Positions 12,239-61,509 of a stretch of 64,000 nucleotides of DNA are shown in pieces (position 1 is the first letter of the stretch; every line of letters starts with the position of its first letter). Origin of the DNA: Mycolicibacterium litorale (GTDB taxonomy: Bacteria; Actinomycetota; Actinomycetes; Mycobacteriales; Mycobacteriaceae); the NCBI RefSeq assembly GCF_010731695.1, contig NZ_AP022586.1:558001-622000 (forward strand), written 5' to 3'. A model generated the notes under the pieces. The model did not search any database. It had not been told where the DNA came from and was given only the letters and a program-made list of their open reading frames with translations. The position numbers and the translations under genes were made by a program.

Positions 12239-12253
12239 GAGAATAACGTTCTC
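12239..12253. promoter_or_regulatory. GAGAAT-type operator before the P450/ferredoxin operon
   Basis: GAGAAT-AAC-GTTCTC is an inverted repeat with a 3-base spacer, ending 14 bases before ATG 12268. It is a member of the repeated RAGAAY-N3-RTTCTC family found before about ten transcription units here. No convincing third half-site is seen at the N7 spacing. Confidence 0.65.
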
Positions 12254-12267
12254 GCTTCTGGGATCGA

Positions 12268-13566
12268 ATGGAGCAGCGCATGGCGGAGGACCTCACCGCG
12301 GTTGACTTCTTCCGGGATGGCCGTCTGACCGACGACCCGTACACGTTCTACGCGGCGCTGCGCGAGAAGTGTCCGGTCACCAAGGAGAACCACTACGGCG
12401 TCACGATGGTGACCGGGTGGCAGGAGGCCGTCGACGTCTACAACGACGCCGAGACGTTCTCCTCGTGCATCTCGGTGACCGGGCCGTTCCCCGGCTTCCC
12501 GATCCCCCTGGAAGGGGACGACGTCACGGACCTGATCGTCAAGCACCGCGACGAGATCCCGTTCAGCGACCAGCTACCGACACTCGACCCACCGACCCAC
12601 ACCAACCACCGCGCCCTGTTGATGCGGCTGATCACGCCCAAGCGCCTCAAGGAGAACGAGGACGCCATGTGGCAGTTGGCCGACGACATCCTCGACGACT
12701 TCCTCGCACCGGGTGAGGGGGAGTTCATCAAGGGCTTCGCGGCGCCGTTCACGCTGCGGGTGATCGCCGATCTGCTCGGGGTGCCCGAAGAGGACCGGCC
12801 CGAACTCCTCGAGCGCCTCGCACGCGGCACCCACGGCGGCGCGCTGGGCAGCGCCGACAAGTCGTTGACCAAGACACCGCTGGAGTACCTCTACGACATC
12901 TTCGCCGAGTACATCGAGGACCGGCGGCGCGAACCCCGCGAGGACGTGCTGACCGGGCTGGCGACCGCGACGTTCCCCGACGGCACGATGCCCGAGGTCG
13001 CCGACGTGGTGCGGGTCGCGACCAACGTGTTCTCCGCCGGGCAGGAGACCACCGTGCGCCTGCTGTCCACGGCGCTCAAGGTGATCGGGGACCACCCCGA
13101 CATCCAGCGCGCGCTGCGCGAGGACCGCAGCCTGCTGCCCAACTTCATCGAAGAGTGCCTGCGCATCGAGAGCCCCGTCAAGGGCGACTTCCGGTTGTCG
13201 CGGGTGCCGACCACCGTCGGCGACGAATCGCTGCCCGCCGGAAGCACGGTGATGGTGATCAACGGCGCGGCCAATCGCGATCCGCGCCGGTTCGAGAACC
13301 CCGACACCTTCGACCCACAGCGCAAGAACGCCCGCCAGCACCTGGCGTTCGGGCGCGGCATCCACAGCTGCCCCGGGGCGCCGCTCGCCCGCGCCGAGAC
13401 GCGCGTCGGCCTCGAACGGCTGCTCGACCGGACCACCGACATCCGGATCAGCGAGACGCACCACGGGCCGGCCGGTGACCGCCGCTACGGCTACATCCCG
13501 ACCTACATCCTGCGCGGTCTCACCGAACTGCATCTGGAGTTCGACGTCACAGGGGGACAGTCGTGA
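12268..13566 (+). CDS. Cytochrome P450 monooxygenase
   Basis: A 432-residue P450 with I-helix AGQETT (257-262), ExxR in EECLR, and haem loop FGRGIHSCPG with axial Cys368. It is paralogous to the P450 at 50222: both contain FSSCIS near the N-terminus and PKRLKENED. ATG 12268 is used here; ATG 12280 (MAEDLT) is possible. The overlapping ferredoxin gene (ATGA-type junction at 13563) supplies its redox partner. It is the first gene of a three-gene unit under the 12239 operator. Confidence 0.93.
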   Translation: MEQRMAEDLTAVDFFRDGRLTDDPYTFYAALREKCPVTKENHYGVTMVTGWQEAVDVYNDAETFSSCISVTGPFPGFPIPLEGDDVTDLIVKHRDEIPFSDQLPTLDPPTHTNHRALLMRLITPKRLKENEDAMWQLADDILDDFLAPGEGEFIKGFAAPFTLRVIADLLGVPEEDRPELLERLARGTHGGALGSADKSLTKTPLEYLYDIFAEYIEDRRREPREDVLTGLATATFPDGTMPEVADVVRVATNVFSAGQETTVRLLSTALKVIGDHPDIQRALREDRSLLPNFIEECLRIESPVKGDFRLSRVPTTVGDESLPAGSTVMVINGAANRDPRRFENPDTFDPQRKNARQHLAFGRGIHSCPGAPLARAETRVGLERLLDRTTDIRISETHHGPAGDRRYGYIPTYILRGLTELHLEFDVTGGQS

Positions 13567-13754
13567 AGGTCACCGTCGACGAGGACCGCTGCCGCGGCCA
13601 CGGCATGTGCCTCACGCTGTGCCCGGAGGTCTTCACCATGACCGACGACGGATACGCCGTCGCGGACCCGTCCGACGTGCCCGACGGGCTCGAAGGGGCG
13701 GCCAAGGACGCCATCTCCAACTGCCCGGAACAAGCCATCGTCGAAATCAGCTGA
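13563..13754 (+). CDS. 3Fe-4S ferredoxin (P450 redox partner)
   Basis: A 63-residue ferredoxin starting at GTG 13563. Cluster ligands are Cys10, Cys16 and Cys54 in CRGHGMC ... NCPEQAI, with His at the variable position of the motif. It differs from the other three ferredoxins in this window by an additional Cys20 (LTLCPEVF). It is translationally coupled to the upstream P450 and presumably delivers electrons to it. Confidence 0.93.
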   Translation: MKVTVDEDRCRGHGMCLTLCPEVFTMTDDGYAVADPSDVPDGLEGAAKDAISNCPEQAIVEIS

Positions 13755-13770
13755 GCGACAAGGAGACACA

Positions 13771-14058
13771 GTGCCCAAGGGCTACATCCTCATCACCGAA
13801 GACGTCAAGGACCCGGCCGGTATGGCCGAGTACGGCAAGCTGGCCGCGCAGACCATGGCCGGTTCGACACTGCTGTCGTTCGACTCGAAACCCGAAGTGC
13901 TCGAGGGGGAGTGGCACGGCACCCAGACGGTGCTGCTCGAATTCGAGTCGGTCGAGGCGGCCCGTGAATGGTACAACTCCGACGCCTACCAGGAGGCGGT
14001 CAAGTTGCGGCAGGCCGCCGCCGACTGCAACGGCGTCATCCTGCACGGCCTCGGCTAG
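13771..14058 (+). CDS. DUF1330-family small protein
   Basis: A 95-residue protein with the features of DUF1330 (dimeric alpha/beta-barrel fold): KGYILITEDVKDP at the start, then LEGEWHGTQTVLLEFES and AREWYNSDAYQEAVKLR. It follows the ferredoxin by 16 bases with AAGGAG upstream, so it is the third gene of the P450 operon. The function of the family is not established; relatives often accompany degradative enzymes. Confidence 0.85.
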   Translation: MPKGYILITEDVKDPAGMAEYGKLAAQTMAGSTLLSFDSKPEVLEGEWHGTQTVLLEFESVEAAREWYNSDAYQEAVKLRQAAADCNGVILHGLG

Positions 14059-14065
14059 CACTCCC

Positions 14066-14122
14066 CGAAACCGCATTCCCGGCTGTCAAGCGCACCGCTT
14101 GGCAGCCGGGAATGCGGTTTCG
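14066..14122. terminator. Long hairpin between convergent genes (bidirectional terminator)
   Basis: A 20-base perfect stem pairs 14066-14085 with 14103-14122. After a T-G wobble it continues with six more pairs (CAAGCG/CGCTTG) around a CAC loop. It sits exactly between the stops of the DUF1330 gene (plus) and a P450 gene (minus). There is no U-tract, as is common for mycobacterial terminators. Confidence 0.85.
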
Positions 14123-14126
14123 CGGG

Positions 14127-15344: not shown

Positions 15345-15372
15345 TCACTCTCCCGGTCGGCCGCGAGGCGTC

Positions 15373-16769: not shown

Positions 16770-16802
16770 GGGCTCCTCCTTCGCGGCGGGCTGATAGCCG
16801 GA

Positions 16803-26919: not shown

Positions 26920-26947
26920 GTTCTTCAAAGGCAAGAACCGAGTTCTC
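26920..26947. promoter_or_regulatory. Composite operator, amidohydrolase side of a divergent promoter
   Basis: Reads GTTCTT-N7-AAGAAC-CGA-GTTCTC on the plus strand: three half-sites, the outer two both inverted relative to the middle one. On the minus strand this is GAGAAC-N3-GTTCTT-N7-AAGAAC, the same 28-base architecture as at 50143, 56314 and 57093. It is 95 bases from the TTG start of the amidohydrolase operon. Confidence 0.65.
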
Positions 26948-27055
26948 CGAATACTTACGCGCATCAACGCAGGTCGGAGACTGTGCTGGTCAGTCGGCCA
27001 GCGGTGTGCCCACAGAAGCTGCCACGCGTTGGACGAGAACGCGTGATCCTGCGAT

Positions 27056-27070
27056 GAGAATGATATTCTC
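27056..27070. promoter_or_regulatory. GAGAAT-N3-ATTCTC operator before the acyl-CoA dehydrogenase operon
   Basis: A perfect inverted repeat GAGAAT-GAT-ATTCTC, 33 bases upstream of ATG 27104. With the composite at 26920 it gives two sites in one divergent promoter region. A weak third half-site (GTGATC) stands at the N7 distance. Confidence 0.7.
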
Positions 27071-33008: not shown

Positions 33009-33080
33009 AGAGCGTCCTCCACCGCGGTGGCGGGGGGTACGACGGGCGTCTCAGGCATCAAGAATCATCCTTCCGATTAT

Positions 33081-33095
33081 GAGAACCGTACTCTC
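33081..33095. promoter_or_regulatory. GAGAAC-type operator on the SDR side of a divergent promoter
   Basis: GAGAAC-CGT-ACTCTC matches the RAGAAY-N3-RTTCTC family with one mismatch in the right arm. It lies 73 bases upstream of the SDR start (33008) and faces a second, composite site at 33221. Confidence 0.5.
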
Positions 33096-33220
33096 GACAT
33101 TGATCATTCTGCAAGAAATCACACGGGTCCGCTCGGCTTCGACCTATGCTCCGAGCCGGTTCATCAAGCCTATGACTAGCCACTCTAGGTTTCCTTGAGT
33201 TCTCTGGGACCGAATGTATG

Positions 33221-33248
33221 ATTCGCCGGGAATGAGAATGGAATTTCC
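33221..33248. promoter_or_regulatory. Composite operator before the ALDH-mce operon
   Basis: Reads ATTCGC-N7-GAGAAT-GGA-ATTTCC, the three-half-site 28-base arrangement in the same orientation as 26920 and 48771. A perfect palindrome ATGGAA-T-TTCCAT (33238-33250) overlaps its right part. It ends 15 bases before ATG 33264, so it probably governs the long catabolic-plus-mce operon. Confidence 0.55.
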
Positions 33249-33263: not shown

Positions 33264-34772
<1,509 letters not shown>

Positions 34773-39205: not shown

Positions 39206-39208
39206 GCC

Positions 39209-40066: not shown

Positions 40067-40075
40067 GGGAGCACT

Positions 40076-41353
40076 GTGTCGAAGAATATGGGCCCCGGAC
40101 CGATGCATCGCTCCGAGACGACGAGCGGAGCCTCACCAATCGCCTCGTCGAGCGGTCGCCACTTCGGGGTCACGCATTACGCGAGGCCGCTGGCCGGTCT
40201 CGGCATGGTCGTGGCCGTGGTACTCATCGTTGCGCTGGCGGTCGGGCTGTTTCGCGGCAGCTTCTCCGAAAGCGTTCCGGTGACCGTGATCTCGGACCGC
40301 GCCGGTCTGGTGATGAACCCCGACGCCAAGGTCAAGATGCGTGGGGTGGAGGTCGGCAAGGTCGACTCGATCGAGCACCGTGCCGACGGCACGGCCGCGC
40401 TGCATCTGGCGATCGAGCCGTCACAGATGCGGCTGATTCCCGAGAACGTGGGCGTCGACATCGAGTCGACGACGGTGTTCGGCGCGAAATCCGTGCAGTT
40501 CGTCACGCCCCCTGATCCGTCGGCCAAACCGCTGAGCCCCGGTCAGACACTGCGCGGTGACCGGGTCATGGTCGAGATCAACACCGTCTTCCAGGATCTG
40601 GTGGCCGTACTGGACCGTATCGACCCGGCCAAATTGAACCAGACGCTCGGAGCGCTCTCGTCGGCCTTTTCGGGTCGCGGGGAGAGCATGGGTAAGACCC
40701 TGAGCGATTTCAACGCCCTGCTCGCCGAGCTGGAGCCCAGCCTGCCCAACCTCGCCAGGGACATGGAACTGACCGCACCGGTGGCCTCCGCCTACGCGGA
40801 CATCGCACCGGACCTCCTGCGCACCATGCGCAATGCGACGACGATCAGCGACGGCATCGTCGAGGAACAGAACAACCTGGACGCGTTCCTGGTCAGCGCG
40901 ATCGGACTCGCCGACATCGGCAACGAGGTCATCGGCGGCAACCGTGAGGCGTTCAGCGAGGTGCTCAGACTGCTCGTCCCCACCACCGATCTGTTCAACG
41001 AGTACGCGAAGGCGATCAACTGCACCCTCGAGGGCATGAGCTACGTGCTGCACCAACCGCCGCAGCTGGATCCGGGAGTTGTGGTGAACGTGGCCTTCAC
41101 CATGGGCATCGAGCGCTACCGCTACCCGCGGAACCTGCCGAAGGTCGCCGCGAAGGGCGGACCGCAATGTATGGGACTGCCCTACATCGGATTCGGCAAC
41201 CGGTCGAAGTTCCTGGTCACCGACAACAACGGCAACCCGTGGCAATACGGCAACCAGGGCATCTTGCTGAACTCCGACGGTCTCAAGCAACTGCTCTTCG
41301 GACCGCTCGACGGGCCGCCGCGTAACACCGCACAGATCGGACAGCCGGGATGA
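40076..41353 (+). CDS. mceA: MceA-type lipid-binding protein
   Basis: A 425-residue Mce protein starting at GTG 40076 behind AGGGGA. One membrane helix (about residues 40-60, LGMVVAVVLIVALAVGLF) is followed by the MCE domain (VTVISDRAGLVMNPDAKVKM; DVESTT-like and FGAKSVQF), a helical middle and a C-terminal globular tail. Mce proteins assemble as a six-member periplasmic tunnel that moves hydrophobic substrates to the YrbE permease. No C-terminal tail rich in proline is present, unlike D-F. Confidence 0.95.
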   Translation: MSKNMGPGPMHRSETTSGASPIASSSGRHFGVTHYARPLAGLGMVVAVVLIVALAVGLFRGSFSESVPVTVISDRAGLVMNPDAKVKMRGVEVGKVDSIEHRADGTAALHLAIEPSQMRLIPENVGVDIESTTVFGAKSVQFVTPPDPSAKPLSPGQTLRGDRVMVEINTVFQDLVAVLDRIDPAKLNQTLGALSSAFSGRGESMGKTLSDFNALLAELEPSLPNLARDMELTAPVASAYADIAPDLLRTMRNATTISDGIVEEQNNLDAFLVSAIGLADIGNEVIGGNREAFSEVLRLLVPTTDLFNEYAKAINCTLEGMSYVLHQPPQLDPGVVVNVAFTMGIERYRYPRNLPKVAAKGGPQCMGLPYIGFGNRSKFLVTDNNGNPWQYGNQGILLNSDGLKQLLFGPLDGPPRNTAQIGQPG

Positions 41354-42375
41354 CGCGCGTAACAGGCACACTGGTGAAGTTCGCGGTGTTCGCCACAGTG
41401 ATGACGCTGCTGACCGTCTTCCTGTTCATGGCCTTCAGTCAGTACCGGAGCGGTTCCACCTCGAGTTACTCCGCGGTGTTCTCCGACGCATCGCAACTGA
41501 AGACCGGCGACTCGGTGCGGGTGGCCGGGGTCAGGGTGGGCACCGTGGAGGGCGTTGCGCTGCAGAACGATAAGACCGTGCTGGTGGAGTTCGACGCCGA
41601 TCAGAGCGTCGTCCTCACCTCCGGCACGCAGGCCGCCGTGCGCTACCTCAACCTGACCGGTGACCGCTATCTCGAACTCATCGACGGTCCCGGTTCGACG
41701 CGTGTCCTGCCCGCAGGGGCACAGATCCCGAAGGAACGCACCGCCGCTGCGCTCGACCTCGACCTGTTGCTCGGCGGCCTGCGTCCGGTGATCCAAGGCC
41801 TCAATCCCCAGGACGTCAACGCGCTGACGACCTCGCTGATCCAGATCTTCCAGGGTCAGGGCAACACGCTGGATTCGCTGCTGAGCAAGACCTCGTCATT
41901 CTCGAACACCCTCGCCGACAACAGTCAGGTCATCCAGCAGTTGATCGACAACCTCAACACGGTCGTCGACACCCTGGCCCGGGACGGTGACAAGTTCTCC
42001 GGCGCCATCGACCGCCTCGAGCAGCTGATCAGCGGCCTGGCCGAGGACCGCGACCCGATCGGCACCGCGATCACCGCCCTGGACAACGGAACCGCGTCCA
42101 TCGCCGATCTGCTCACCGAGGCTCGCCCGCCGCTCAACCGCACCGTGGACGAGTTGAACCGGCTGGCGCCCCTGGTCGACGATCACAAGATCATCCTCGA
42201 CATGGCCTTGCAGAAAGGACCCGAGAACTACCGCAAGGTCGCGCGGCTCGGCGCCTACGGCAGCTGGATCATGTACTACATCTGCGGGATCTCGTTCCGC
42301 GTGACCGATCTGCAGGGCCGTACGGCGGTCTTCCCGATGCTCAAACAGGAAAGCGGGAGGTGCGGCGAGCCCTGA
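41350..42375 (+). CDS. mceB: MceB-type lipid-binding protein
   Basis: A 341-residue Mce protein whose start overlaps mceA by 4 bases. It has an N-terminal helix (FAVFATVMTLLTVFLFMAF) and an MCE domain (YSAVFSDASQLKTGDSVRVAGVRVG, recognisable from its two halves). A long amphipathic helical region (SSFSNTLADN, LIDNLNTVVDTLA) would form part of the tunnel. It is one of the shortest in the operon, typical for MceB. Confidence 0.95.
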   Translation: MTRVTGTLVKFAVFATVMTLLTVFLFMAFSQYRSGSTSSYSAVFSDASQLKTGDSVRVAGVRVGTVEGVALQNDKTVLVEFDADQSVVLTSGTQAAVRYLNLTGDRYLELIDGPGSTRVLPAGAQIPKERTAAALDLDLLLGGLRPVIQGLNPQDVNALTTSLIQIFQGQGNTLDSLLSKTSSFSNTLADNSQVIQQLIDNLNTVVDTLARDGDKFSGAIDRLEQLISGLAEDRDPIGTAITALDNGTASIADLLTEARPPLNRTVDELNRLAPLVDDHKIILDMALQKGPENYRKVARLGAYGSWIMYYICGISFRVTDLQGRTAVFPMLKQESGRCGEP

Positions 42376-43457
42376 TGCGCAAATATCGTGAATCGAATCT
42401 GATCAAGGCCGGCTTCATCGGCGTAGCGCTGATCGTGCTGGTGATCGCCGTCGGGCTGCAACCCGAGCGCATCATCCAGTGGGCCACCTCGGTGCGGCAC
42501 CAGGCGCTGTTCACCGAGGCCGGTGGCCTCACCGCCGGCAACGACGTCATGGTGTCGGGGATCAAGGTCGGTTCGGTGACCGACGTGTCGTTGTCCAATG
42601 GCGATGCGCTGGTGACGTTCACGACGGACGGACGTTACACGCTGGGATCGCAGACGACCGCGCACATCCGCATCGGATCCCTGCTGGGTGAGCGCATCCT
42701 CACCCTCACGTCCGAGGGCAGTGGATCGCTGAGCCAGTCCGAGATCATCCCTGTCTCGCGGACTTCGTCGCCCTATTCTCTGACCGATGCCGTCGGCGAC
42801 CTGACGACCAACACCGCCGGTACGGACACGACGTCGCTGAATCAGTCGCTGGACACCCTGGCGGCGACGATCGACCAGGTGGCGCCGCAGCTCGGACCGA
42901 CCTTCGACGGACTGAGCCGGCTGTCGCGTTCGCTCAACAGCCGCAACGAGAACCTGGCCGGGTTGCTCAAGAGCGCCAGCGAGGTCACCGAGGTGCTGTC
43001 GCAGCGCAGCCAGCAGTTGAACACTTTGATCCTCAACGCGAACGATCTGCTCGGGGTGCTCAACGACCGCAGGCAGGCGATCGTCGATCTGCTGGCCAAC
43101 ACCTCGGCCGTCGCCCAGCAACTCACCGGTCTGGTCGCCGACAACGAACAGGAGTTGGCGCCGACGCTGCAGCGGCTCAACTCGGTGATGGCGATGCTCG
43201 AAGGCCATCGCGACAACATCGCCAAGATCCTGCCGAGCCTGAAGAAATTCATTCTCGCGCAGGGCGAGACGCTGGCAAACGGCCCCTACTACAACGCCTT
43301 CGTGCCCAACCTGCAGCCGGCGCAGATCCTGCAGCCGTTCATGGACTACGCGTTCGGCTTCCGGCGCGGCACCAACGCCGGTCAGCCGCCGGACACCGCG
43401 GGGCCACGTGCCGAATTGCCGCTGCCCTACAACGGCATCCCGGGAGGTTCGCGATGA
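42375..43457 (+). CDS. mceC: MceC-type lipid-binding protein
   Basis: A 360-residue Mce protein. ATG 42375 overlaps the mceB stop and gives MRKYRESNLIKAGFIG, the usual MceC beginning; GTG 42360 would add five residues. An N-terminal membrane helix, an MCE domain (FTEAGGLTAGNDVMVSGIKVG) and a long helical repeat region rich in Leu/Asn follow. Confidence 0.95.
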   Translation: MRKYRESNLIKAGFIGVALIVLVIAVGLQPERIIQWATSVRHQALFTEAGGLTAGNDVMVSGIKVGSVTDVSLSNGDALVTFTTDGRYTLGSQTTAHIRIGSLLGERILTLTSEGSGSLSQSEIIPVSRTSSPYSLTDAVGDLTTNTAGTDTTSLNQSLDTLAATIDQVAPQLGPTFDGLSRLSRSLNSRNENLAGLLKSASEVTEVLSQRSQQLNTLILNANDLLGVLNDRRQAIVDLLANTSAVAQQLTGLVADNEQELAPTLQRLNSVMAMLEGHRDNIAKILPSLKKFILAQGETLANGPYYNAFVPNLQPAQILQPFMDYAFGFRRGTNAGQPPDTAGPRAELPLPYNGIPGGSR

Positions 43458-44929
43458 CAAGCCGGGGACGTCTGACGAAGCTGCTGACGGTGGGGCTGGT
43501 CGCGCTGGTGGTGGCCGGTGTCGCCGTGCTGGTGCGCCAGGTGTACTTCGGTCCGAAGAAGATCGCCGCGGTGTTCACCTCCGCGACGGGCATCTATCCG
43601 GGTGACGAGGTCCGGGTGTCCGGTGTGCAGGTGGGCACCATCGACTCCATCAACCCGGAGGGCACCCAGACCCGGCTGATGCTCCACATCGACCGCGACG
43701 TGCCGATCCCCGCGGACGCCAAGGCCGTCATCGTCGCGCCCAACCTGATCGCCGCGCGCTACGTCCAGCTGACCCCGGCCTATCGCACGAGCGGCCCGAC
43801 GATGCCCGAGGACGCGGTGATCCCGCTGGAGCGCACCGCCGTCCCGGTCGAATGGGATGAGGTCAAAGAACAGCTCATGCGCCTGGCGACCGACCTCGGC
43901 CCGCAGAGCGGGGTGGACGGCACCTCGGTGTCGCGGTTCATCAACAGCGCCGCCAACGCGATGGACGGCAACGGCGACAAGTTGCGCCAGGTCATCACCG
44001 AGCTGTCCGGGGCCGCCCGCGTGCTGGCCGAGGGCAGCGGCAACATCGTCGACATCATCAAGAACCTGCAGACCTTCATCTCGGCCTTGAAGAACAGCAA
44101 TGAGCAGGTGATGTTGTTCCAGGACCGGTTGGCCACGCTGACGAGCGTGATCGACGGCAGCCGGTCGGATCTCGATGCGGCGCTGAAGGATCTGTCGGTG
44201 GCCGTCGTCGAGGTGCAGCGTTTCGTTTCGGGCACCCGCAATCCGGCCTCCGAGCAGGTGCAGCGGTTGGCCAACGTCACGCGGAACCTGCTCGACAACA
44301 AGCTCGAGATCGAGAACCTGCTGCACATCGCGCCGAATGCCTTGAGCAACGCCTACAACATCTACAACCCCGACACGGGCAGTGCCGTCGGCCAGTTCGT
44401 GTTGAACAACTTCTCCAACCCCGTGCAGTTCATCTGCGGTGCGGTCGGCGCAATCGAGAACACCACCGCCCCCGAGACCTCGAAGCTCTGCTCGCAGTAC
44501 CTCGGACCGGCGTTGCGCCTGTTGAACTTCAACTATCTGCCCATCCCGATCGCGCCGTATCTGTCGCCGTCGGCCAATCCCGAGAACATCATCTACTCCG
44601 AGCCCGGTCTCGCCCCGGGAGCGGGCGGCAGCACTCCGCAACCGCCGTTGACTCCGCCATCCGTTTCCGCCTACGAGGGTGTCGCCCCCGGTCCGCCACC
44701 GTTCACCGGGCGACCGCCCGGTGTACCGGGTCCCGGTGCGCAGCAACTGCTTCCGGGGGCGCCACCCGTGATACCGCCGAATCTGCCGACCTCGGTGGAG
44801 AACGTTCTCAATCCGGCCGGTGTGCCGGCGGGTCCGCCACCCGGGCCGCCACCTCCCGGGCCACTGCTGCCGGCCGAGGCCCCGGCACCGGGCGCACCCG
44901 CACCCGCGGAAGGGACCCCACCAGCATGA
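43454..44929 (+). CDS. mceD: MceD-type lipid-binding protein with proline-rich tail
   Basis: A 491-residue Mce protein overlapping mceC by 4 bases. It has an N-terminal helix (LLTVGLVALVVAGVAVLV) and an MCE domain (VFTSATGIYPGDEVRVSGVQVG). A helical middle is followed by a last ~100 residues rich in Pro, Gly and Ala, probably extended outside the tunnel. Length and tail fit MceD. Confidence 0.95.
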   Translation: MTSRGRLTKLLTVGLVALVVAGVAVLVRQVYFGPKKIAAVFTSATGIYPGDEVRVSGVQVGTIDSINPEGTQTRLMLHIDRDVPIPADAKAVIVAPNLIAARYVQLTPAYRTSGPTMPEDAVIPLERTAVPVEWDEVKEQLMRLATDLGPQSGVDGTSVSRFINSAANAMDGNGDKLRQVITELSGAARVLAEGSGNIVDIIKNLQTFISALKNSNEQVMLFQDRLATLTSVIDGSRSDLDAALKDLSVAVVEVQRFVSGTRNPASEQVQRLANVTRNLLDNKLEIENLLHIAPNALSNAYNIYNPDTGSAVGQFVLNNFSNPVQFICGAVGAIENTTAPETSKLCSQYLGPALRLLNFNYLPIPIAPYLSPSANPENIIYSEPGLAPGAGGSTPQPPLTPPSVSAYEGVAPGPPPFTGRPPGVPGPGAQQLLPGAPPVIPPNLPTSVENVLNPAGVPAGPPPGPPPPGPLLPAEAPAPGAPAPAEGTPPA

Positions 44930-46302
44930 CGGGCGGAAAGGCCAAGCGCCTCACCATCGCCGTGGGCTCGTGCGTTGCCGTGACCCTCAGCGGTTGCGGG
45001 TTCCAGGGCGTCAACACCCTGCCGCTGCCGGGTGCGGTCGGCCGCGGGCCCGACGCGAAGACGTATCACGTCGAGATCGCCAATGTCGCTCAGCTGGAAC
45101 CGAACTCGCCGGTGATGATCGACGACGTCGTGGTCGGCAGTGTGAAGTCGATGTCGGTGAAGAACTGGCACGCCGACGTCGAGATCTCTGTGAAGCCGGA
45201 GGTCGTGGTGCCGGGGAACGCGATCGCGAGTGTCGCGCAGACCTCGCTGCTGGGGTCGATGCACCTCGCGCTCAATCCGCCCCTCGGCGAGGATCCCGAG
45301 GGCGTGCTGCAGCCCGGATCCACGATCTCGCTCAACGACTCGTCCACCTACCCCACCACCGAGCAGACGCTGTCGTCGCTGGCGGCCGTCGTCAACGGTG
45401 GCGGGCTGGGGCAGATCGGCGATGTGATCCACAATTTCAGTACCGCGCTCGACGGCCGTCAGGGTGAGGTGCGCGATCTGCTCACCCGGCTCGACACGTT
45501 CGTCAGCACGCTGGACGCCCAACGCGACAACATCGTGTCGTCTATCCAATCGCTGAACCGGCTGTCGTCGACGTTCGCCCAGCAGCGCGACGACATCACC
45601 GTGGCGCTGGACCGGATTCCGCCGGCCATCGACGTGCTCGTCAGGGAGCGGCCCCGGTTGACCACCGCGCTGCAGAAGCTCGGTACGTTCAGCGACACCG
45701 CGACGCAGTTCGTCAACGATTCGCAGGCCGACCTGGTGAGGAACTTGAAGAACCTGGAACCCGCGATCAAGGCGTTCGCCGACGTGGGCCCGGATCTGAA
45801 CAAGATCCTCGAGTTCGCGGCCCACTTCCCGTTCACGCAGAGCTTCATCGATCGCGCCATCCGCGGCGACTACTACAACCTGTTCGCCATCGTCGACTTC
45901 ACGATCCCGCGGTTGAAGCGAACTCTGTTCCTGGGGACCCGGTGGGAACAGGAGGGCGCCGAATTGATCCCTGCGCCAGGCGATCCCAACTACCTGCAGT
46001 ACACCTACGATCCGCTCAAGCTCGGGATCGACCCACCGCCACCCGATGCGTTCCCGGATGCGGCGCCGATCGAGTCGGCGACCGGGGAGGCTGCGCCGCC
46101 ACCGCCACCGCCACCGCCGCCGGTCACCGCCGACGTGGGGCCGATTCTGCCGGTGACGCCGCCGGCGCCGATGTCGGCCTTCGGGGCGCCCGCCCCGGCG
46201 CCGGCGCCCGCCCCCGGAGCGACGGCACCGGTCTTCGCGGGACCGTATCCGAATTCGACGCCGCCGCCTGATGCGGCGCCGCCGGCTCCAGGGGGTCGCT
46301 GA
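44926..46302 (+). CDS. mceE: MceE-type lipoprotein (LprN-like)
   Basis: A 458-residue Mce protein with a lipoprotein signal: TLSGCGF gives the lipobox L-S-G-C with acylated Cys24, the hallmark of MceE. The MCE domain (VEIANVAQLEPNSPVMIDDVVVG) and helical middle follow, then a proline-rich tail with a run of about ten prolines encoded by CCACCG-type repeats at 46096-46122. It overlaps mceD by 4 bases. Confidence 0.95.
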   Translation: MTGGKAKRLTIAVGSCVAVTLSGCGFQGVNTLPLPGAVGRGPDAKTYHVEIANVAQLEPNSPVMIDDVVVGSVKSMSVKNWHADVEISVKPEVVVPGNAIASVAQTSLLGSMHLALNPPLGEDPEGVLQPGSTISLNDSSTYPTTEQTLSSLAAVVNGGGLGQIGDVIHNFSTALDGRQGEVRDLLTRLDTFVSTLDAQRDNIVSSIQSLNRLSSTFAQQRDDITVALDRIPPAIDVLVRERPRLTTALQKLGTFSDTATQFVNDSQADLVRNLKNLEPAIKAFADVGPDLNKILEFAAHFPFTQSFIDRAIRGDYYNLFAIVDFTIPRLKRTLFLGTRWEQEGAELIPAPGDPNYLQYTYDPLKLGIDPPPPDAFPDAAPIESATGEAAPPPPPPPPPVTADVGPILPVTPPAPMSAFGAPAPAPAPAPGATAPVFAGPYPNSTPPPDAAPPAPGGR

Positions 46303-48053
46303 TGCTGACACGCTTCGTCCGGATCCAGTTGATCCTCTTCACGATCGCCTCGATCGTCGGCGTTGCGGTCATGGCGTTCGTCTACATGCAGGTGCCCACG
46401 CTGCTCGGGGTGGGCCGGATGATCGTCAAGGTGGAGCTGCCGGATTCCGGTGGTCTCTACCAGTTCAGCAACGTCACCTATCGCGGCTCTCAGGTCGGCA
46501 AGGTCACGACGGTGACGCTCACCGAGAAAGGTGCCGAGGCGACGCTGTCCCTCGAGGGTTCGGCGAAGATCCCGGCGGATCTGAAGGCCGAGGTGCGCAG
46601 CGTGTCGGCGGTCGGCGAGCAGTACGTCGAGCTCCTGCCCCGCACGGATCAGCCGCCGTATCTGGAGGACGGCTCGGTGATCGCCATGGAGAACACCACG
46701 GTTCCTCAGGCGGTCGGCCCGATGCTGGATCAGGTGAGCGCATTGGTCAACACGATTCCGAAGGACACGCTCGGTCAGTTGCTCGACGAGTCGTACAACG
46801 CGTTCAAGGGCACGGATTTCGACTTCGGATCGCTCCTCGACTCGTCATCGACCATCACCCGGGACGCGCGCGGGATAGCGGGGCAGACGCGAGCCCTCAC
46901 CGACGACGCTGTGCCGTTCCTCGACGCGCAGGCCCAGACGGCCGATTCGATCCGCACATGGGGCAGAAGCCTCGCCGGCGTCACCGATCAGATCTCCAAC
47001 AACGACCCCCAGGTCCGCTCGATCCTGCGCAACGGGCCGGGCTTCGCGCAGGAGACCGCCCGGTTGCTCGAACAGGTGAAGCCGACGCTGCCGGTGTTGT
47101 TGGCCAACCTCACCACGTTCGGCCAGATCGGCGTGACCTACAACCCGTCGATCGAACAACTGCTGGTACTCGTGCCGCCGTTCGTCGCGCAGATCCAGAC
47201 CTACGCGCCGACCAACAACCCCAGCGGTCTGCCCAATGGTGACTTCTCCTTGGGCCTGGGCGATCCCGCGGCCTGCACCGTCGGGTTCCTGCCGCCGTCG
47301 TCGTGGCGCAGTCCGGCCGACACGTCGGTCATCGACACCCCGGACGACCTCTACTGCAAGCTGCCGCAGGATTCTCCGGTCGCGGTGCGTGGGGCGCGCA
47401 ACTACCCGTGCATGGGACACCCGGGGAAACGCGCACCCACCGTGGAAATCTGCAACGATCCCAACGGCTTTCAGCCGCTGGCGCAGCGTCAGCATGTACT
47501 CGGGCCGTACCCCTTCGACCCGAACCTGATGAAGCAGGGCATTCCACCGGACAGCCGGGCGTTGGTCGACTCGAACACCTTCGGACCCATCGAGGGCACT
47601 CCGCTACCACCCGGGGTGACCGAGCGGCCGGCCGACATACCACCGCCCCCGTCACCGCCACCGAATTTCGCGGGCACGGGTCCGGGACCACTGTTACCCG
47701 GGCGGCCGTTGTACACCTCACCGCCGGTGAGCCCGCCGGGGCCGGCCCAGGTGACCGAACCCGACGCCGTTCCGCTGCCGCCCGCGCGACTCCCGCAGGC
47801 CACCGAGGTTCCCGTGCCGCCCGGTATGGCCCCCGAAGACGTGCCGCTGCCACCCGGCGCCTCACCAGTGCCGTCGCCGGCTCCGGCCGCGGCGCCCACG
47901 GGGTTCGACGGCGGCGCCTCGTCCGGCCCGTCGGTGGGCATCGCGAAATACAACCCGCGGACCGGTGAGTACATGGGCAGTGACGGCAACATGTACCGGC
48001 AGTCCGACCTCGTCACGCAACCGAAGTCGTGGCAGGAGATGATGCCGACCTGA
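46302..48053 (+). CDS. mceF: MceF-type lipid-binding protein with long proline-rich tail
   Basis: A 583-residue Mce protein, last of the operon, starting one base into the mceE stop. It has an N-terminal helix (IQLILFTIASIVGVAVMAFVY), an MCE domain (LPDSGGLYQFSNVTYRGSQVG), a helical region, and a roughly 140-residue Pro/Ala-rich tail. It ends in YNPRTGEYMGSDGNMYRQSD, a typical MceF C-terminus. A terminator hairpin follows 16 bases later. Confidence 0.95.
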   Translation: MLTRFVRIQLILFTIASIVGVAVMAFVYMQVPTLLGVGRMIVKVELPDSGGLYQFSNVTYRGSQVGKVTTVTLTEKGAEATLSLEGSAKIPADLKAEVRSVSAVGEQYVELLPRTDQPPYLEDGSVIAMENTTVPQAVGPMLDQVSALVNTIPKDTLGQLLDESYNAFKGTDFDFGSLLDSSSTITRDARGIAGQTRALTDDAVPFLDAQAQTADSIRTWGRSLAGVTDQISNNDPQVRSILRNGPGFAQETARLLEQVKPTLPVLLANLTTFGQIGVTYNPSIEQLLVLVPPFVAQIQTYAPTNNPSGLPNGDFSLGLGDPAACTVGFLPPSSWRSPADTSVIDTPDDLYCKLPQDSPVAVRGARNYPCMGHPGKRAPTVEICNDPNGFQPLAQRQHVLGPYPFDPNLMKQGIPPDSRALVDSNTFGPIEGTPLPPGVTERPADIPPPPSPPPNFAGTGPGPLLPGRPLYTSPPVSPPGPAQVTEPDAVPLPPARLPQATEVPVPPGMAPEDVPLPPGASPVPSPAPAAAPTGFDGGASSGPSVGIAKYNPRTGEYMGSDGNMYRQSDLVTQPKSWQEMMPT

Positions 48054-48770: not shown

Positions 48771-48798
48771 CTTCTCCGAAGGCAAGAGTTCAGTTCTG
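48771..48798. promoter_or_regulatory. Composite operator before a small secreted-protein gene
   Basis: CTTCTC-N7-AAGAGT-TCA-GTTCTG, the three-half-site arrangement with two degenerate arms. The N7 segment CGAAGGC differs by one base from that at 26926-26932 (CAAAGGC). It ends 26 bases before ATG 48825. Confidence 0.45.
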
Positions 48799-50102: not shown

Positions 50103-50142
50103 GGACCCCTCCAGCGCATCGAAAACCCTTGCTCGCCTTGAC

Positions 50143-50170
50143 GAGATCGGCCTTCTCATCACGGGAGAAT
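50143..50170. promoter_or_regulatory. Composite operator before two secreted-protein genes
   Basis: GAGATC-GGC-CTTCTC-N7-GAGAAT: the 28-base three-half-site arrangement. The first spacer is GGC, exactly as at 56320, 57099 and 61501. It lies between the P450 stop (50222) and the secreted-protein start (50102). Confidence 0.6.
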
Positions 50171-51499: not shown

Positions 51500-51529
51500 G
51501 GATGTTCCTTCCCGAACGTCCGCATCGTT

Positions 51530-51547
51530 GCTGAGCACCTGCTTAGC
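51530..51547. promoter_or_regulatory. Inverted repeat between the P450 and the divergent TetR gene
   Basis: GCTGAGCA-CC-TGCTTAGC: 8-base arms matching at 7 of 8 positions. It is 31 bases from the P450 start and 101 bases from the TetR start, the usual place for an autoregulatory TetR operator. Confidence 0.55.
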
Positions 51548-51647
51548 ATGGCCGTAGAGTGTTGGTCAAGGTCGACTGGTGGACGGCGCCTACCATTCCT
51601 GTTGTGGCGCGGGCGGACCCGGTGACCGCAGGACAGGAGGTGGCGGA

Positions 51648-52265
51648 GTGACGACGGCTTCGCAGCGGAGAATCGGTGCGCCCGACGCGAAGAACCGCGG
51701 CGTTCTTCTCGACGCCGCCGAACGACTGATGGTCGAAGAGGGATACGCCGCGGTGACGTCGCGGCGGGTCGCCGAACGGGCGGGACTCAAACCGCAGTTG
51801 GTGCACTACTACTTCCGCACCATGGACGACCTGTTCCAGGCGGTGTTCCGACGCCGAGCCGAACAGGGACTGGAAGTGCAGGCGCGCGTGCTGGACTCCC
51901 CGCAGCCGCTGTGGGCGCTGTGGCGGTTCAGTACCGACGCCGCGGCGACCCGGCTGACGATGGAGTTCATGGGTCTGGCGAATCACCGCCACGCGTTGCG
52001 CGAGGACATCGCGTACTACGCCGAGCGGTTCCGCGCTGAACAGAACAAGGTGCTCACCGCCGCGCTGCAGCGCTACGGTGCCGACGTCTCGGATGTTCCG
52101 CCGGTGGTGTGGACCGTGTTCGCCACGAGCGTCTCGCGCGTGATGGTCATGGAGCGTGCGTTGGGGATGTCCGCCGGTCACGCCGAGACGTGGGCGTTCT
52201 GCGAACAATGGCTGCGCCGCCTGGAAGGCGACTACCGGCCGCAGGACACCGAAGCCCCTGCCTGA
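51648..52265 (+). CDS. TetR-family transcriptional regulator
   Basis: A 205-residue regulator starting at GTG 51648 behind AGGAGG. The N-terminal helix-turn-helix includes ILLDAAE-like VLLDAAERLMVEEGYAAVT, then SRRVAERAGLKPQLVHYYF, the typical TetR recognition segment. The ligand-binding half is ordinary in length. It is divergent from the P450 at 51499 and convergent with the oxidase-subunit operon. It could also bind the regional GAGAAT sites, but nothing in the sequence shows this. Confidence 0.92.
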   Translation: MTTASQRRIGAPDAKNRGVLLDAAERLMVEEGYAAVTSRRVAERAGLKPQLVHYYFRTMDDLFQAVFRRRAEQGLEVQARVLDSPQPLWALWRFSTDAAATRLTMEFMGLANHRHALREDIAYYAERFRAEQNKVLTAALQRYGADVSDVPPVVWTVFATSVSRVMVMERALGMSAGHAETWAFCEQWLRRLEGDYRPQDTEAPA

Positions 52266-54659: not shown

Positions 54660-54665
54660 CGGCGG

Positions 54666-55808: not shown

Positions 55809-55836
55809 ATCTCGACTCTTTCTCTCGTCGGCCGGC

Positions 55837-56250: not shown

Positions 56251-56313
56251 GCGTCGTCCTCCGTGTCCGGGCAAGCCGCGATCCGGCGTGCATGCACAAC
56301 GGTGACACTAGTG

Positions 56314-56341
56314 GGAAATGGCATTCTCGTCTAGAGAGAAT
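56314..56341. promoter_or_regulatory. Composite operator before the DUF35-thiolase-oxidase operon
   Basis: GGAAAT-GGC-ATTCTC-N7-GAGAAT, one of the clearest three-half-site examples. The pair ATTCTC/GAGAAT is perfect. It lies 63 bases upstream of ATG 56250. Confidence 0.7.
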
Positions 56342-56357
56342 CGTCGCTGCGACGCGG

Positions 56358-57074: not shown

Positions 57075-57092
57075 CAGACGTTCTCCCAGTCC

Positions 57093-57120
57093 GGTATTGG
57101 CATTCTCGGTTGCGGAGAAT
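57093..57120. promoter_or_regulatory. Composite operator in the hydratase/ligase divergent promoter
   Basis: GGTATT-GGC-ATTCTC-N7-GAGAAT: the first half-site is weak, the other two are perfect, and the spacings equal those at 56314. It is 18 bases from ATG 57074 and 34 bases from GTG 57155, so it could control both genes. Confidence 0.6.
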
Positions 57121-57154
57121 AGCATCACCAACGAGCTGGAGGTGCTGCGGAGGC

Positions 57155-58729
57155 GTGCGAAAGATCCCTGATGAGCTGACCAAACGCTACGAGCAAGAAG
57201 GGTGGTGGACACCCGAAACGCTCGGCGAACTCCTCGCGCGGCATCTCGCGACGGGGCCGGACACCGGGTTCTGCGTGCACTCCGAGCTGCGCCCCTACCG
57301 GGGCACCTTCGCCGACGTCGAACGCCAGGCCCGCCAGCTCGCGGCCGGGCTGCGCAGGCGTGGCGTCGGCCCGGGCGACGTCGTCGCCCTGCAGCTGCCG
57401 AACTGGGCCGAGGCGGCGATGACGTTCTGGGCCTCGGCGTTCCTGGGCGCGGTCGTGGTGCCCATCGTGCACTTCTACGGCCGCAAGGAACTCAGCCACA
57501 TCCTGTCCAGCGCCCGGCCGAAGGTGTTCATCACCACCGCGGCGTTCGGCCGGATGACCTTCCAGCCGGACCTGTGCGCCGACGTCCCGATCGTCGGTCT
57601 GGTCGGCGAGTCCAGCTTCGGGGAACTGCTCGACGACGAGCCGATGGCCGGTACGGTCCACACCGATCCCGCCGGACCCGCGCTGATCGCCTTCACCTCC
57701 GGCACCACCCGCGATCCCAAGGGCGTCGTCCACAGCCACCAGACCCTCGGGTTCGAAACCCGCCAGCTGCTGGAGAACTATCCGCCCGACCGTGGGCGCC
57801 AGCTGACGGCCACCCCGGTCGGACACTTCATCGGGATGGTCGGCGCCTTCCTCATCCCGGTCCTCGAGAACGCGCCGATCGACCTGTGCGACGTCTGGGA
57901 CCCCGGCAAGGTGCTCGGCCTGATGGAGACCGAGGGGTTGTCGATCGGCGGCGGACCGCCGTACTTCGTCACCAGCCTGCTCGACCATCCCGACTGCACC
58001 CCCGCCCACATCGCACGCTTCTCCACCGTCGGCCTCGGGGGGTCGACCGTCCCTGCGGCGGTGACGCGCCGGCTGGCCGATCTCGGGCTGTTCGTCTTCC
58101 GTTCGTACGGCAGCACCGAACATCCCTCGATCACCGGCTCGCGGCCGAGTGCGCCGGAGGCCAAGCGGCTCTACACCGACGGCGACCCTCGCCCCGGTGT
58201 GGAGATCAAGCTCACCGACGACGGTGAGATCCTGTCCCGCGGCCCGGACCTCTGCCTCGGGTACACCGACGCGGCGTTGACCGCCAAGGCATTCGACGAC
58301 GACGGCTGGTACCACACCGGCGATGTCGGGGTCATCGACGAGGACGGCTATCTGACCATCACCGACCGCAAGGCGGACGTCATCATCCGCGGTGGCGAGA
58401 ACATCAGCGCGCTCGAAGTCGAAGAGGTGCTGCTCAGCATGCCCGCCGTCGCCGAGGCGGTGGTGGTGTCGGCGCCCGACTCCCGGCTCGGCGAACACGC
58501 GGCCGCGGTGCTGCGAATCCGGCCCGGCCATTCGATGCCCACCCTCGACGACGTCCGCGGGCACTTCGAACGGGCGGGTGTCGCGCGGCAGAAGTGGCCC
58601 GAGCAACTGGTCGAGATCCCCGAAGGTCAGGACTACCCGCGGACCGCCAGCGGAAAGGTGCAGAAAGTGCTCATCCGCGAGCAGGTTCGCCGCATCGCAC
58701 AGCAGGGCATTGCAGCCGTGGCAAATTGA
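57155..58729 (+). CDS. AMP-forming acyl-CoA ligase (ANL superfamily)
   Basis: A 524-residue adenylate-forming ligase activating a carboxylic acid to its CoA thioester. Motifs are FTSGTTRDPKG (P-loop, A3), YGSTEHPS (A5), GWYHTGDVG (A7), DRKADVIIRGGENIS (A8) and the catalytic Lys in RTASGKVQK (A10). GTG 57155 is the best start; the open frame upstream runs into the operator. Its stop overlaps another operator (58728). Confidence 0.92.
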   Translation: MRKIPDELTKRYEQEGWWTPETLGELLARHLATGPDTGFCVHSELRPYRGTFADVERQARQLAAGLRRRGVGPGDVVALQLPNWAEAAMTFWASAFLGAVVVPIVHFYGRKELSHILSSARPKVFITTAAFGRMTFQPDLCADVPIVGLVGESSFGELLDDEPMAGTVHTDPAGPALIAFTSGTTRDPKGVVHSHQTLGFETRQLLENYPPDRGRQLTATPVGHFIGMVGAFLIPVLENAPIDLCDVWDPGKVLGLMETEGLSIGGGPPYFVTSLLDHPDCTPAHIARFSTVGLGGSTVPAAVTRRLADLGLFVFRSYGSTEHPSITGSRPSAPEAKRLYTDGDPRPGVEIKLTDDGEILSRGPDLCLGYTDAALTAKAFDDDGWYHTGDVGVIDEDGYLTITDRKADVIIRGGENISALEVEEVLLSMPAVAEAVVVSAPDSRLGEHAAAVLRIRPGHSMPTLDDVRGHFERAGVARQKWPEQLVEIPEGQDYPRTASGKVQKVLIREQVRRIAQQGIAAVAN

Positions 58730-58742
58730 GAATACGATTCTC
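58728..58742. promoter_or_regulatory. GAGAAT-N3-ATTCTC operator before the amidohydrolase-ligase unit
   Basis: A perfect GAGAAT-ACG-ATTCTC inverted repeat, overlapping the ligase stop codon and ending 22 bases before ATG 58765. A degenerate third half-site (GAAAAG) stands at the N7 position. Its presence inside an apparent run of plus-strand genes argues for an internal promoter here. Confidence 0.7.
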
Positions 58743-58764
58743 GCAATAAGAAAAGGAGTGTTTC

Positions 58765-59955: not shown

Positions 59956-61400
59956 CGTACCGGGCGCGCTGGAACACCATCCCCGAGATGGTGTTGAGCG
60001 CAGCGGACCGGTTCGGCGACGCGGAAGCGGTCGTCGACGGTCCGCTGCGCTTGTCCTTCGCGGAGCTGGTCCACCGGATTCGCTGCGCCGCAGGCGCTTT
60101 CGCCGAACTCGGCATCGAAAGGGGTGACCGCGCCGCGATCTGGGCGCCGAACTCCGCCGAGTGGATCATCGCGGCGTTCGGGCTGCTGACCGCGGGCGGC
60201 GTCCTCGTGCCGGTCAACACCCGCTTCAAGAACGAGGAGGCGGCCGACGTCATCGGCCGCAGTGGCGCGAAGGCGGTGCTGGTCCAGAAGGGCTTCTTGG
60301 GCCAGGACTACACCGCACCGGCCGGTGTGCCGGTGATCGACGTCAAATCCGACTTCCTCAGCAGCGGAAGCGCTTTCGAGCGTCCGGTCGAGGGCTCCGA
60401 CATCTCCGACATCATCTTCACCTCCGGTACCACCGGCAGGCCCAAGGGCGTGATGATGAACCACCGCCAGAACCTGCGGTTGTACGAGGAATGGTGCGAC
60501 CTCGCCGATCTGCGGCAGGGTGACCGGTACCTGATGGTCAACCCCTATTTCCACACCTTCGGGTACAAGGCCGGCCTGATCGCCTCGTTCATCCGCGGGG
60601 CGACGATGCTGCCGGTCGCGGTGTTCGACGTCGACCGCGTCGTGGACCTGATCGCGGCCGAACGCATCACGATGCTGCCGGGGCCGCCGACGCTGTATCA
60701 CTCGCTGCTCGCGGTCGAGGACAAGACGAAACTGGCCACCCTGCGTGCCGGTGTCACCGGCGCGGCCGACATCCCCGTCGAACTGGTGCGCCGCGTGCTC
60801 GAAGAACTGCCGTTCCAGACGCTGGCCACCGGATACGGGCTCACCGAGGCCGGCACCGCCACGCTGTCGCGCCCCGGTGACTCGTTCACCGACATCGCCA
60901 CCACGGTCGGCACCGCGTGCGACGGCGTCGAGGTCCGCATCGCCGACGACGGCGAAGTGCTGGTGCGCGGGTACAGCGTCATGCAGGGCTACCTCGACGA
61001 TCCGGCCGCCACCGCCGAGGCCGTCGACCGCGACGGCTGGCTGCACACCGGCGATCTCGGCACGCTCGACGATGCCGGACGACTGCGCATCGTGGGCCGT
61101 AAGAAGGACATGTTCATCGTCGGTGGGTTCAACGCCTACCCGGCCGAGATCGAGGGTTTCCTGCTCGAGCATCCAGCCGTCGCCCAGGTCGCCGTGATAG
61201 GCGTGGACGACGAACGCATGGGGCAGGTGGGGAAGGCGTTCGTGGTGCGAAAAGCCGCGAACACCGATATGACGGCCGAGGATCTGATTGGCTGGGCCAG
61301 GGGCAGGATGGCCGGCTACAAGGTGCCGCGCTACGTCGAGTTCCGCGACGAGCTACCACTCAACGCCACCGGGAAGGTGATGAAGGATCGGTTGCACTGA
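59952..61400 (+). CDS. FadD3-like AMP-forming acyl-CoA ligase
   Basis: A 482-residue ligase starting at GTG 59952, overlapping the amidohydrolase stop. Motifs are FTSGTTGRPKG, TGYGLTEAGT, GWLHTGDLG, GRKKDMFIVGGFNAYP and LNATGKVMK. Length and several stretches (NPYFHTFGYKAGLIASF, LPGPPTLYHSLL) recall M. tuberculosis FadD3, the CoA ligase for the HIP propionate side chain in cholesterol ring breakdown. The same substrate is not implied. It is followed by an operator region and Mce-associated genes. Confidence 0.9.
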   Translation: MTYRARWNTIPEMVLSAADRFGDAEAVVDGPLRLSFAELVHRIRCAAGAFAELGIERGDRAAIWAPNSAEWIIAAFGLLTAGGVLVPVNTRFKNEEAADVIGRSGAKAVLVQKGFLGQDYTAPAGVPVIDVKSDFLSSGSAFERPVEGSDISDIIFTSGTTGRPKGVMMNHRQNLRLYEEWCDLADLRQGDRYLMVNPYFHTFGYKAGLIASFIRGATMLPVAVFDVDRVVDLIAAERITMLPGPPTLYHSLLAVEDKTKLATLRAGVTGAADIPVELVRRVLEELPFQTLATGYGLTEAGTATLSRPGDSFTDIATTVGTACDGVEVRIADDGEVLVRGYSVMQGYLDDPAATAEAVDRDGWLHTGDLGTLDDAGRLRIVGRKKDMFIVGGFNAYPAEIEGFLLEHPAVAQVAVIGVDDERMGQVGKAFVVRKAANTDMTAEDLIGWARGRMAGYKVPRYVEFRDELPLNATGKVMKDRLH

Positions 61401-61415
61401 GCGGCTGCCCAAAAC

Positions 61416-61430
61416 GGAAATGACATTTCC
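61416..61430. promoter_or_regulatory. GGAAAT-N3-ATTTCC palindrome before Mce-associated genes
   Basis: GGAAAT-GAC-ATTTCC, a perfect palindrome extended by one C/G pair on each side. It is a variant of the regional operator. A TATAAC (61434-61439), possible -10 element, follows directly, so binding would block a promoter for the 61544 gene. Confidence 0.55.
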
Positions 61431-61494
61431 GCTGTATAACAGCCCTTCTGCGCCGATCCGGACATGAGGTATGGTCGCGGCGATATCCTGAACA

Positions 61495-61509
61495 GGTAAT
61501 GGCATTCTC
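61495..61509. promoter_or_regulatory. Second operator-like site before Mce-associated genes
   Basis: GGTAAT-GGC-ATTCTC fits the family with two mismatches in the left arm and has the GGC spacer found at three composite sites. It spans a potential ATG (61499), which argues against that start; the GTG at 61544 with AAGGAGG is preferred. Confidence 0.45.

Follow-up and report, generated by a model that had tools for sequence, protein, structure and literature searches.

Operators of TetR-family regulators are often described as a single palindrome for one dimer, or as a stretch for two overlapping dimers. In the published accounts of the closest systems, KstR2 recognises 14-base-pair (bp) palindromes, which lie in the promoter region of its own gene and, for the majority of its catabolic genes, 22-82 bp ahead of them (PMC3068626); several EthR dimers of Mycobacterium tuberculosis cooperate on a 55-bp operator as a homo-octamer, and a pair of RolR dimers of Corynebacterium glutamicum binds two palindromes in a 29-bp operator (both PMC9210681); QacR and CprB each load two dimers cooperatively per operator (PMC4150764); and the Mce3R operator consists of two 25-bp sites that are not palindromic and are separated by 53 bp (PMC11667970). 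Here we describe a family of inverted repeats in a 64,000-nucleotide stretch of Mycolicibacterium litorale (the window; contig NZ_AP022586.1, G000:C1:558001-622000 in our coordinates), whose genome, G000, is a single contig of 5.58 Mb. Window positions count from window base 1, all others are given as genome positions, and gene starts are those of our own gene caller. We consider it likely, from the sequence evidence set out below, that these repeats are the operators of a single autoregulated TetR repressor of 217 residues, which would control some 140 kb of clustered catabolic genes as adjacent dimers in helical register.

The core of the family is GAGAAT-N3-ATTCTC, a 15-bp unit of TetR type. 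A first-pass annotation of the window had proposed that the repeat RAGAAY-N3-RTTCTC, alone or in a 28-bp composite with a third half-site at N7, links the promoters of a lipid-catabolic and Mce locus, and we find the sequence it gave at all 12 of its coordinates. The simple sites at 12239, 27056 and 58728 match exactly, with one mismatch at 33081 and two at 61495; the repeat at 61416 (GGAAATGACATTTCC) departs at four out of 12 consensus positions and is a loose member only. The composite geometry holds at 26920, 33221 and 48771 in one orientation and at 50143, 56314 and 57093 in the other, with 0-3 mismatches per half, and GGC is the N3 at 50143, 56314, 57093 and 61495/61501. The window contains 11 strand-matches (six places) with at most one mismatch against 0.67 expected, a number reached by 0 of 100 shuffles. 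Genome-wide, GAGAATNNNATTCTC occurs with at most one mismatch at 14 places and the reversed control pattern at none; eight of the 14 fall within 482.8-616.7 kb (binomial, 3.4e-10), the whole motif-bearing stretch (482,778-619,510) making up 2.45% of the genome. Clustering of this kind, which the annotation had named as its check, supports the shared operator family. Four of the five perfect palindromes in the genome lie inside the cluster, as do six of the eight places with the everted N7 pair alone at one mismatch or fewer; at up to two mismatches this pair is found at 37 places (reversed control, 6), of which we count ten in the cluster, and the relaxed pattern therefore lacks specificity.

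Since the motif stretch begins at 482,778, with sites near 482, 488, 493, 504, 517, 523 and 532 kb, the predicted regulon reaches 75 kb to the left of the window. All 20 sites or arrays that we list are intergenic, with the nearest start codon 6-114 bp away, in a list that omits weak intergenic matches (for example genome positions 493007, 502733, 566399 and 587652) and all coding matches. A position matrix built on ten words, nine of them out of a joined 182 kb of this genome, returns 50 matches above 7.5 bits in those 182 kb, 23 intergenic and 27 coding by our count; the top ten, for the most part training words, are intergenic, and the eleventh falls in coding DNA (window 43242). One isolated perfect unit that has a third half at N7, GAGAATACGATTCTC-N7-GCGAAT, is found 1.7 Mb off the cluster (genome positions 2350509-2350536; L005).

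Half-site spacing was examined by counting all pairs of GAGAAY half-sites (at most one mismatch) in the intergenic DNA of the 182 kb, with no preselected sites and over gaps of 0-30 and 0-120. Inverted pairs (forward-N3-reverse) peak at N3 (12, against a mean of 0.73 over gaps 0-120), everted pairs at N7 (10) and N29 (7; mean 0.87), and direct pairs at N16 (12) and N15 (9; mean 1.46). All 12 N3 pairs and all ten N7 pairs are at cluster promoters, and two of the seven N29 pairs (genome positions 467007 and 523219) are unlike regulon sites. The same counts in coding DNA give no N3, N7 or N29 peak, the direct pairs there following the 3-bp codon rhythm, and 160 kb of a second species (G012) reproduces the intergenic pattern with 12 pairs at N3, 12 at N7, 14 at N16 and 11 at N15, N29 reaching only 3. 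Gaps of 3, 7, 16 and 29 arise when 15-bp units recur every 22 bp, and a gap of 15 when they recur every 21 bp; read in this way, the three half-sites of the composite belong to a more extended series of 15-bp units at 21-22 bp, and individual arrays hold up to five half-sites. A simpler description, in which the third half is a fixed addition to strong palindromes, was tried and rejected: an exact search over gaps 0-30 yielded 17 matches, distributed over 13 of 60 genomes, at gaps of 27 (five), 11 (three), 7 (two), 28 (two) and 2, 3, 4, 6 and 13 (one each). Ten of these gaps (6, 7, 27 and 28) fit the 21/22-bp pitch, a fit recognised post hoc, and the five gap-27 matches look like one promoter.

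By our count, seven promoters carry an N3 pair only, four an N7 pair only, and five carry both (genome positions 482778, 488548 and 532471; window 26920 and 50143). That many promoters have one pair type, that perfect three-half sites are rare and that the strong halves differ between the 21-bp and 22-bp classes could mean that two proteins share the GAGAAT half, the 217-residue TetR on perfect palindromes and another regulator or a heterodimer on composites. However, the N3 spacing is the same in both classes, five promoters combine the two pair types and a second unit keeps this register in the promoter of the TetR gene itself, so that we regard a division of labour between two proteins as unlikely and favour one TetR protein on all of these sites.

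Two array promoters allow this pattern to be followed across species. The ligase array (57080..57129), GTTCTC-N7-GGTATT-GGC-ATTCTC-N7-GAGAAT-AGC-ATCACC, lies between the gene of an enoyl-coenzyme A (CoA) hydratase (56358-57074, -), 6 bp from whose start the outermost half H0 is found, and that of an acyl-CoA ligase (57155, +); the array at 33199..33248, GTTCTC-N7-GAATGT-ATG-ATTCGC-N7-GAGAAT-GGA-ATTTCC, precedes an operon of aldehyde dehydrogenase (ALDH), CaiB, DUF35, thiolase and mce genes. For the ligase (57155) and for ALDH (33267), 60 genomes were searched for orthologues and the 30 best-match loci of each were read; the search anchor, H2-N7-H3, is present at 28 of 30 ligase loci and at 30 of 30 ALDH-mce loci. 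Across 27 distinct ligase sequences H0-H4 hold 1.52, 1.77, 2.00, 2.00 and 1.49 bits, the N3 2.00 and 1.60 and the N7 0.72 and 0.43; across 29 distinct ALDH sequences the values are 1.73, 1.82, 2.00, 1.96 and 1.52 for H0-H4, 1.55 and 1.33 for the N3 and 0.40 and 1.20 for the N7. H2 and H3, the strongest columns, served as the anchor of the search, are therefore conserved by construction and carry no weight here; the free half-sites H0, H1 and H4 hold 1.49-1.82 bits, the inner-unit N3 1.33-2.00 and the N7 gaps 0.40-1.20. That the 15-bp blocks are conserved and the N7 gaps mostly are not indicates that selection sees the blocks, as adjacent dimers would predict. Phased units and blocks conserved over their gaps together favour two adjacent dimers, one of the two readings that the first-pass annotation had offered for its composite.

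The composite units join one strong half to one conserved deviant half (GGTATT, GGAAAT, GGCGAT). Poor halves are thus kept poor, which suggests that weak binding itself is maintained. What is apparently the same promoter can have a deviant half in one genome and a standard half in another: at 56314..56341 (GGAAAT-GGC-ATTCTC-N7-GAGAAT), before ChsH2-like DUF35 and thiolase genes (55837-56250, - and 54666-55808, -), G000 has GGAAAT where G014 and G052 have GAGAAT, all three with the same gap, GTCTAGA, at a similar distance before the ligase.

The best candidate for the regulator is likely the 217-residue TetR protein encoded at G000:C1:522573-523226 (-), a gene that lies to the left of the window and, taken with its own operator, spans distances of 35.4 to 34.6 kb from window base 1, rather than the TetR protein encoded within the window at 51648. 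It has a single TetR_N stretch (Pfam, 31.2 bits; cut-off 24), its closest named matches are from Mycobacterium sp. IS-1742 and IS-1496 (98% identical), and a fold search with a structure model of mean predicted local distance difference test score 73.9 returns TetR proteins, including FadR (solved with acyl-CoA), EthR2 and KstR2. The gene is divergent from that of an acyl-CoA dehydrogenase, and the interval separating the two holds an array (523327-523363) that includes a perfect unit (523349). A unit is present 128-142 bp before the start in 80 of 80 closest relatives, the best 80 of 405 and all near relatives (86-98% identical), and a unit matching at least 10 of 12 positions in 19 of 20 further upstream regions, a set that includes G000 and was selected to cover divergent proteins or second copies; G043 and G093 each have a pair of palindromic units before the gene, at a distance of 21 bp. 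The second unit of this promoter is conserved at 1.71-1.97 bits, and among 18 own promoters, which are partly related, the mean unit score at offsets 16-39 is highest at +22 (6.17 of 12), followed by +20 (5.11) and +23 (5.06). Order-wide, 22 of 200 genomes match the protein at 1e-40, 21 from the genus and one, G167, from another genus of the family; G167 has two copies (75% and 61%), each with a perfect unit upstream and a poorer unit at +22 that matches 9 and 8 of 12 positions, respectively (the second score by our own count). Five of six second copies of the regulator (L317, L319, L321, L328 and L330) have their own sites of the form GAGAAG-N3-CTTCTC, with both halves changed together; regulator and operator may here have changed together, possibly in one event in a common ancestor, as the genomes are related.

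Among 148 genomes of the genus, in which presence of the orthologue was tabulated against at least one perfect motif, orthologue and motif agree in 144 (120 with both, 24 with neither, 2 + 2 discordant; Matthews correlation coefficient (MCC) 0.907), and by our count the orthologue is found in 122 of the 148 at E 4.7e-86 or better. These tables were read off match lists that name the non-matching genomes only in part, the rest being deduced from absence. TetR 51648 (51648..52265, +; TetR_N 55.7 bits), which the first-pass annotation had put forward for binding assays, sits among the targets and tracks the motif nearly as closely (117/5/1/25: both, the two discordant classes, neither). Its own divergent promoter, however, shared with a cytochrome P450 gene (50222-51499, -), holds a different conserved palindrome, TGCTGAGC-N4-GCTTAGCA (51529..51548, TGCTGAGCACCTGCTTAGCA), which is probably its own operator, with the second-half word GCTTAGC in 19 and the first-half word GCTGAGC in 16 of 20 chosen loci; a GAGAAT unit of at least 10/12 occurs in one of 20 upstream regions, that of G056, where the 217-residue TetR is the divergent neighbour, and TetR 51648 is absent from G139, which has four perfect motifs. 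We therefore find it extremely improbable that TetR 51648 binds the GAGAAT sites. A third TetR of the cluster, at genome position 506373 (116/6/1/25), was set aside, being without an orthologue in G137 (seven motifs) and in G139.

A double-headed TetR of Mce3R type, with one head per unlike half, had been the other proposed reader of the composites. The pairing of strong with deviant halves would suit it, and the genome encodes such an Mce3R-like double TetR (genome positions 3747967-3749211, -; L266; E 4.5e-40). Yet this gene tracks the motif poorly (98/24/6/20 at E 1e-20; MCC 0.48), the 20 kb around it hold no unit matching 10/12 positions, deviant and standard halves seem to replace each other at one promoter, as described above, and the strong sites here are perfect palindromes, whereas the Mce3R operator is described as a non-palindromic pair (PMC11667970). 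A double-headed protein is thus a very improbable reader, and the single-domain, 217-residue TetR remains preferred. No mce genes were recognised in the 20 kb around the double TetR, where reading frames were judged by look only.

Several observations weigh against assigning phased arrays to the 217-residue TetR, beyond the anchoring of the two strongest columns. TetR 51648 and the TetR at 506373 follow the motif with nearly equal fidelity (MCC 0.871 and 0.853) because they belong to the same cluster, and co-occurrence alone therefore cannot single out the regulator. A single motif occurs in each of G044 and G070, which lack the orthologue; G056 and G089 encode the orthologue, but their sites are all imperfect; and in G063 about 1 kb of DNA upstream of the orthologue is devoid of a site. 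The pitch differs among promoters (21 or 22), one ALDH N7 gap is itself conserved in part (the 1.20 bits), and strong palindromes have a perfect third half at N7 in only two of the 17 exact matches, a rarity that changed our reading to arrays of weaker units. In the TetR's own promoter a block that is not a half-site, AGGGGG, is also conserved beyond the second unit (1.72 bits), and the second unit contains TACAAT, a possible -10 element. This last feature and the weakness of the outer halves would be expected if only the 15-bp palindromes were operators, the phased extra halves being promoter elements or chance; the spacing peaks obtained without site selection in two species, and outer halves conserved in two unrelated promoters, make this quite unlikely.

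Our working model is that one dimer of the 217-residue TetR would read one 15-bp GAGAAT-N3-ATTCTC unit, and that extra units or halves at a distance of 21 or 22 bp, equal to two helical turns, would place further dimers on the same face. The extra units appear clearest next to a first unit with one poor half, as if neighbouring dimers assist each other, a cooperativity that register and weak halves alone suggest. The 28-bp form would be two such units with three recognisable halves, and the ALDH-mce and ligase promoters would present five halves in 50 bp. Dimers bound 6-114 bp before start codons would block transcription until released by a pathway metabolite, probably a CoA thioester. The targets identified by profile comprise acyl-CoA ligases, acyl-CoA dehydrogenases, an enoyl-CoA hydratase, thiolases with ChsH2-like partners, P450s, amidohydrolases and the Mce operon; this range makes a CoA thioester a fair guess as ligand. 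The cluster probably breaks down fatty or isoprenoid-like compounds. A wider proposal, which we find possible while leaning somewhat away from it, is a regulon widespread among mycobacteria for an Mce-imported hydrophobic substrate, in which one TetR would sit in rows of two to three dimers, one every two helical turns. The strength of a promoter would then depend on the number of poor halves aligned in register, and the choice between a perfect single unit and phased weak units would set a graded order of induction.

The remaining sites show the same elements. A GAAAAC at 21-bp pitch and GAGAAT-AAC-GTTCTC (12218..12253) end 27 bp before a P450 gene (12280). Between an amidohydrolase (25728-26825, -) and an acyl-CoA dehydrogenase (27104, +) lie GTTCTT-N7-AAGAAC-CGA-GTTCTC (26920..26947) and, 34 bp before the dehydrogenase, GAGAAC at 21-bp pitch with GAGAAT-GAT-ATTCTC (27035..27070). 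AAGAAT at 21-bp pitch with GAGAAC-CGT-ACTCTC (33060..33095) is found 52 bp before a short-chain dehydrogenase/reductase gene (32307-33008, -), and a similar palindrome occurs in 17 of 30 orthologous loci, the remaining 13 having been left unoriented. The neighbouring mce operon opens with ALDH (33267..34772, +; Pfam Aldedh) and continues into yrbE-like and Mce-family genes (38408..48053, +), assigned by look except for two that were profile-scanned: 38408 scores 135 bits as an MlaE-family permease, below the cut-off of 212, and 40076 scores 201.7 bits as Mtu_fam_mce (cut-off 140.5). Two small secreted-looking proteins, neither with a Pfam match, follow CTTCTC-N7-AAGAGT-TCA-GTTCTG (48771..48798; gene at 48825, +) and, at 19 bp, GAAAAC, GAGATC-GGC-CTTCTC-N7-GAGAAT at 22-bp pitch (50121..50170; gene at 49644-50102, -). 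GAGAAT-ACG-ATTCTC-N7-GAAAAG (58728..58755) stands 10 bp before an amidohydrolase (58765, +), and the loose palindrome GGAAAT-GAC-ATTTCC (61416..61430) and GGTAAT-GGC-ATTCTC (61495..61509) stand 114 and 35 bp before gene 61544, called Mce-associated in the first-pass annotation and without a Pfam match.

Elsewhere in the region, weak sites (genome positions 493007-493087) lie between an IclR-like gene, so named by look, and an alpha/beta hydrolase gene, in a gene set that by look resembles one of phenylpropionate type. Two closely similar TetR genes (genome positions 555723-556325 and 557600-558208), each beside a similar divergent gene, form a local duplication. Four similar two-gene sets, each of a longer and a short protein (window 3885-5530 and 9208-10802; genome positions 545903-547509 and 530112-531780), encode what we take to be subunits resembling those of Rieske-type oxygenases.

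These results link about twenty operators, together with an Mce importer, to a single testable candidate regulator, whose identity gives a route to the inducer and hence to the substrate, and they reveal a near-identical phased spacing rule in two species from counts that used no preselected sites. If bound, a phased row with weak halves could adjust the many promoters of a pathway by simple means. The literature text searched does not contain the motif as AGAATNNNATTCT, as GAGAAT-N3-ATTCTC or as either of two 15-mers, though motifs given only as figures, the table of PMC4482099 being one example, could hide a prior description, and broader literature searches returned no title or abstract on the 217-residue regulator.

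The arrangement resembles that of KstR and KstR2 in its TetR-type regulator, palindromic sites and control of a catabolic cluster, but the KstR2 box, AnCAAGnnCTTGnT, has a 2-base centre, whereas the present unit has an N3 and another half-site, and the excerpted text of PMC3068626 describes no phased arrays for either protein. The KstR2 box has no exact match in the 182 kb, and the KstR box has three (genome positions 493937, 581186 and 604794), none at operator sites; the motif is thus distinct from both boxes, as the first-pass annotation had held for KstR. The 217-residue TetR scores 20.7 bits against the NCBIfam KstR model (cut-off 280) and so is not a KstR orthologue, no KstR2 model being listed. 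Mce3R of M. tuberculosis is similar in being of TetR type, in controlling an mce operon and lipid genes and in having more than one site per promoter, but, as described in PMC11667970, it has two TetR domains per chain where the 217-residue protein has one, and its operator is asymmetric and non-palindromic where perfect palindromes occur here and the composites alone are asymmetric. In the account of PMC4150764, CprB dimers occupy opposite sides of one 22-bp stretch, with QacR analogous; the present units, judged from sequence, are non-overlapping at 21-22 bp, about two turns apart. RolR, as described in PMC9210681, likewise has two palindromes per operator, but more closely spaced and with different half-sites. 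EthR (PMC9210681) shares the feature of several units in one operator, seen here in the spacing counts of two species and in column conservation and from which multiple dimers are proposed; the EthR repeats are other sequences confined to one operator, whereas here arrays of a 15-bp unit recur at 21-22 bp across many promoters.

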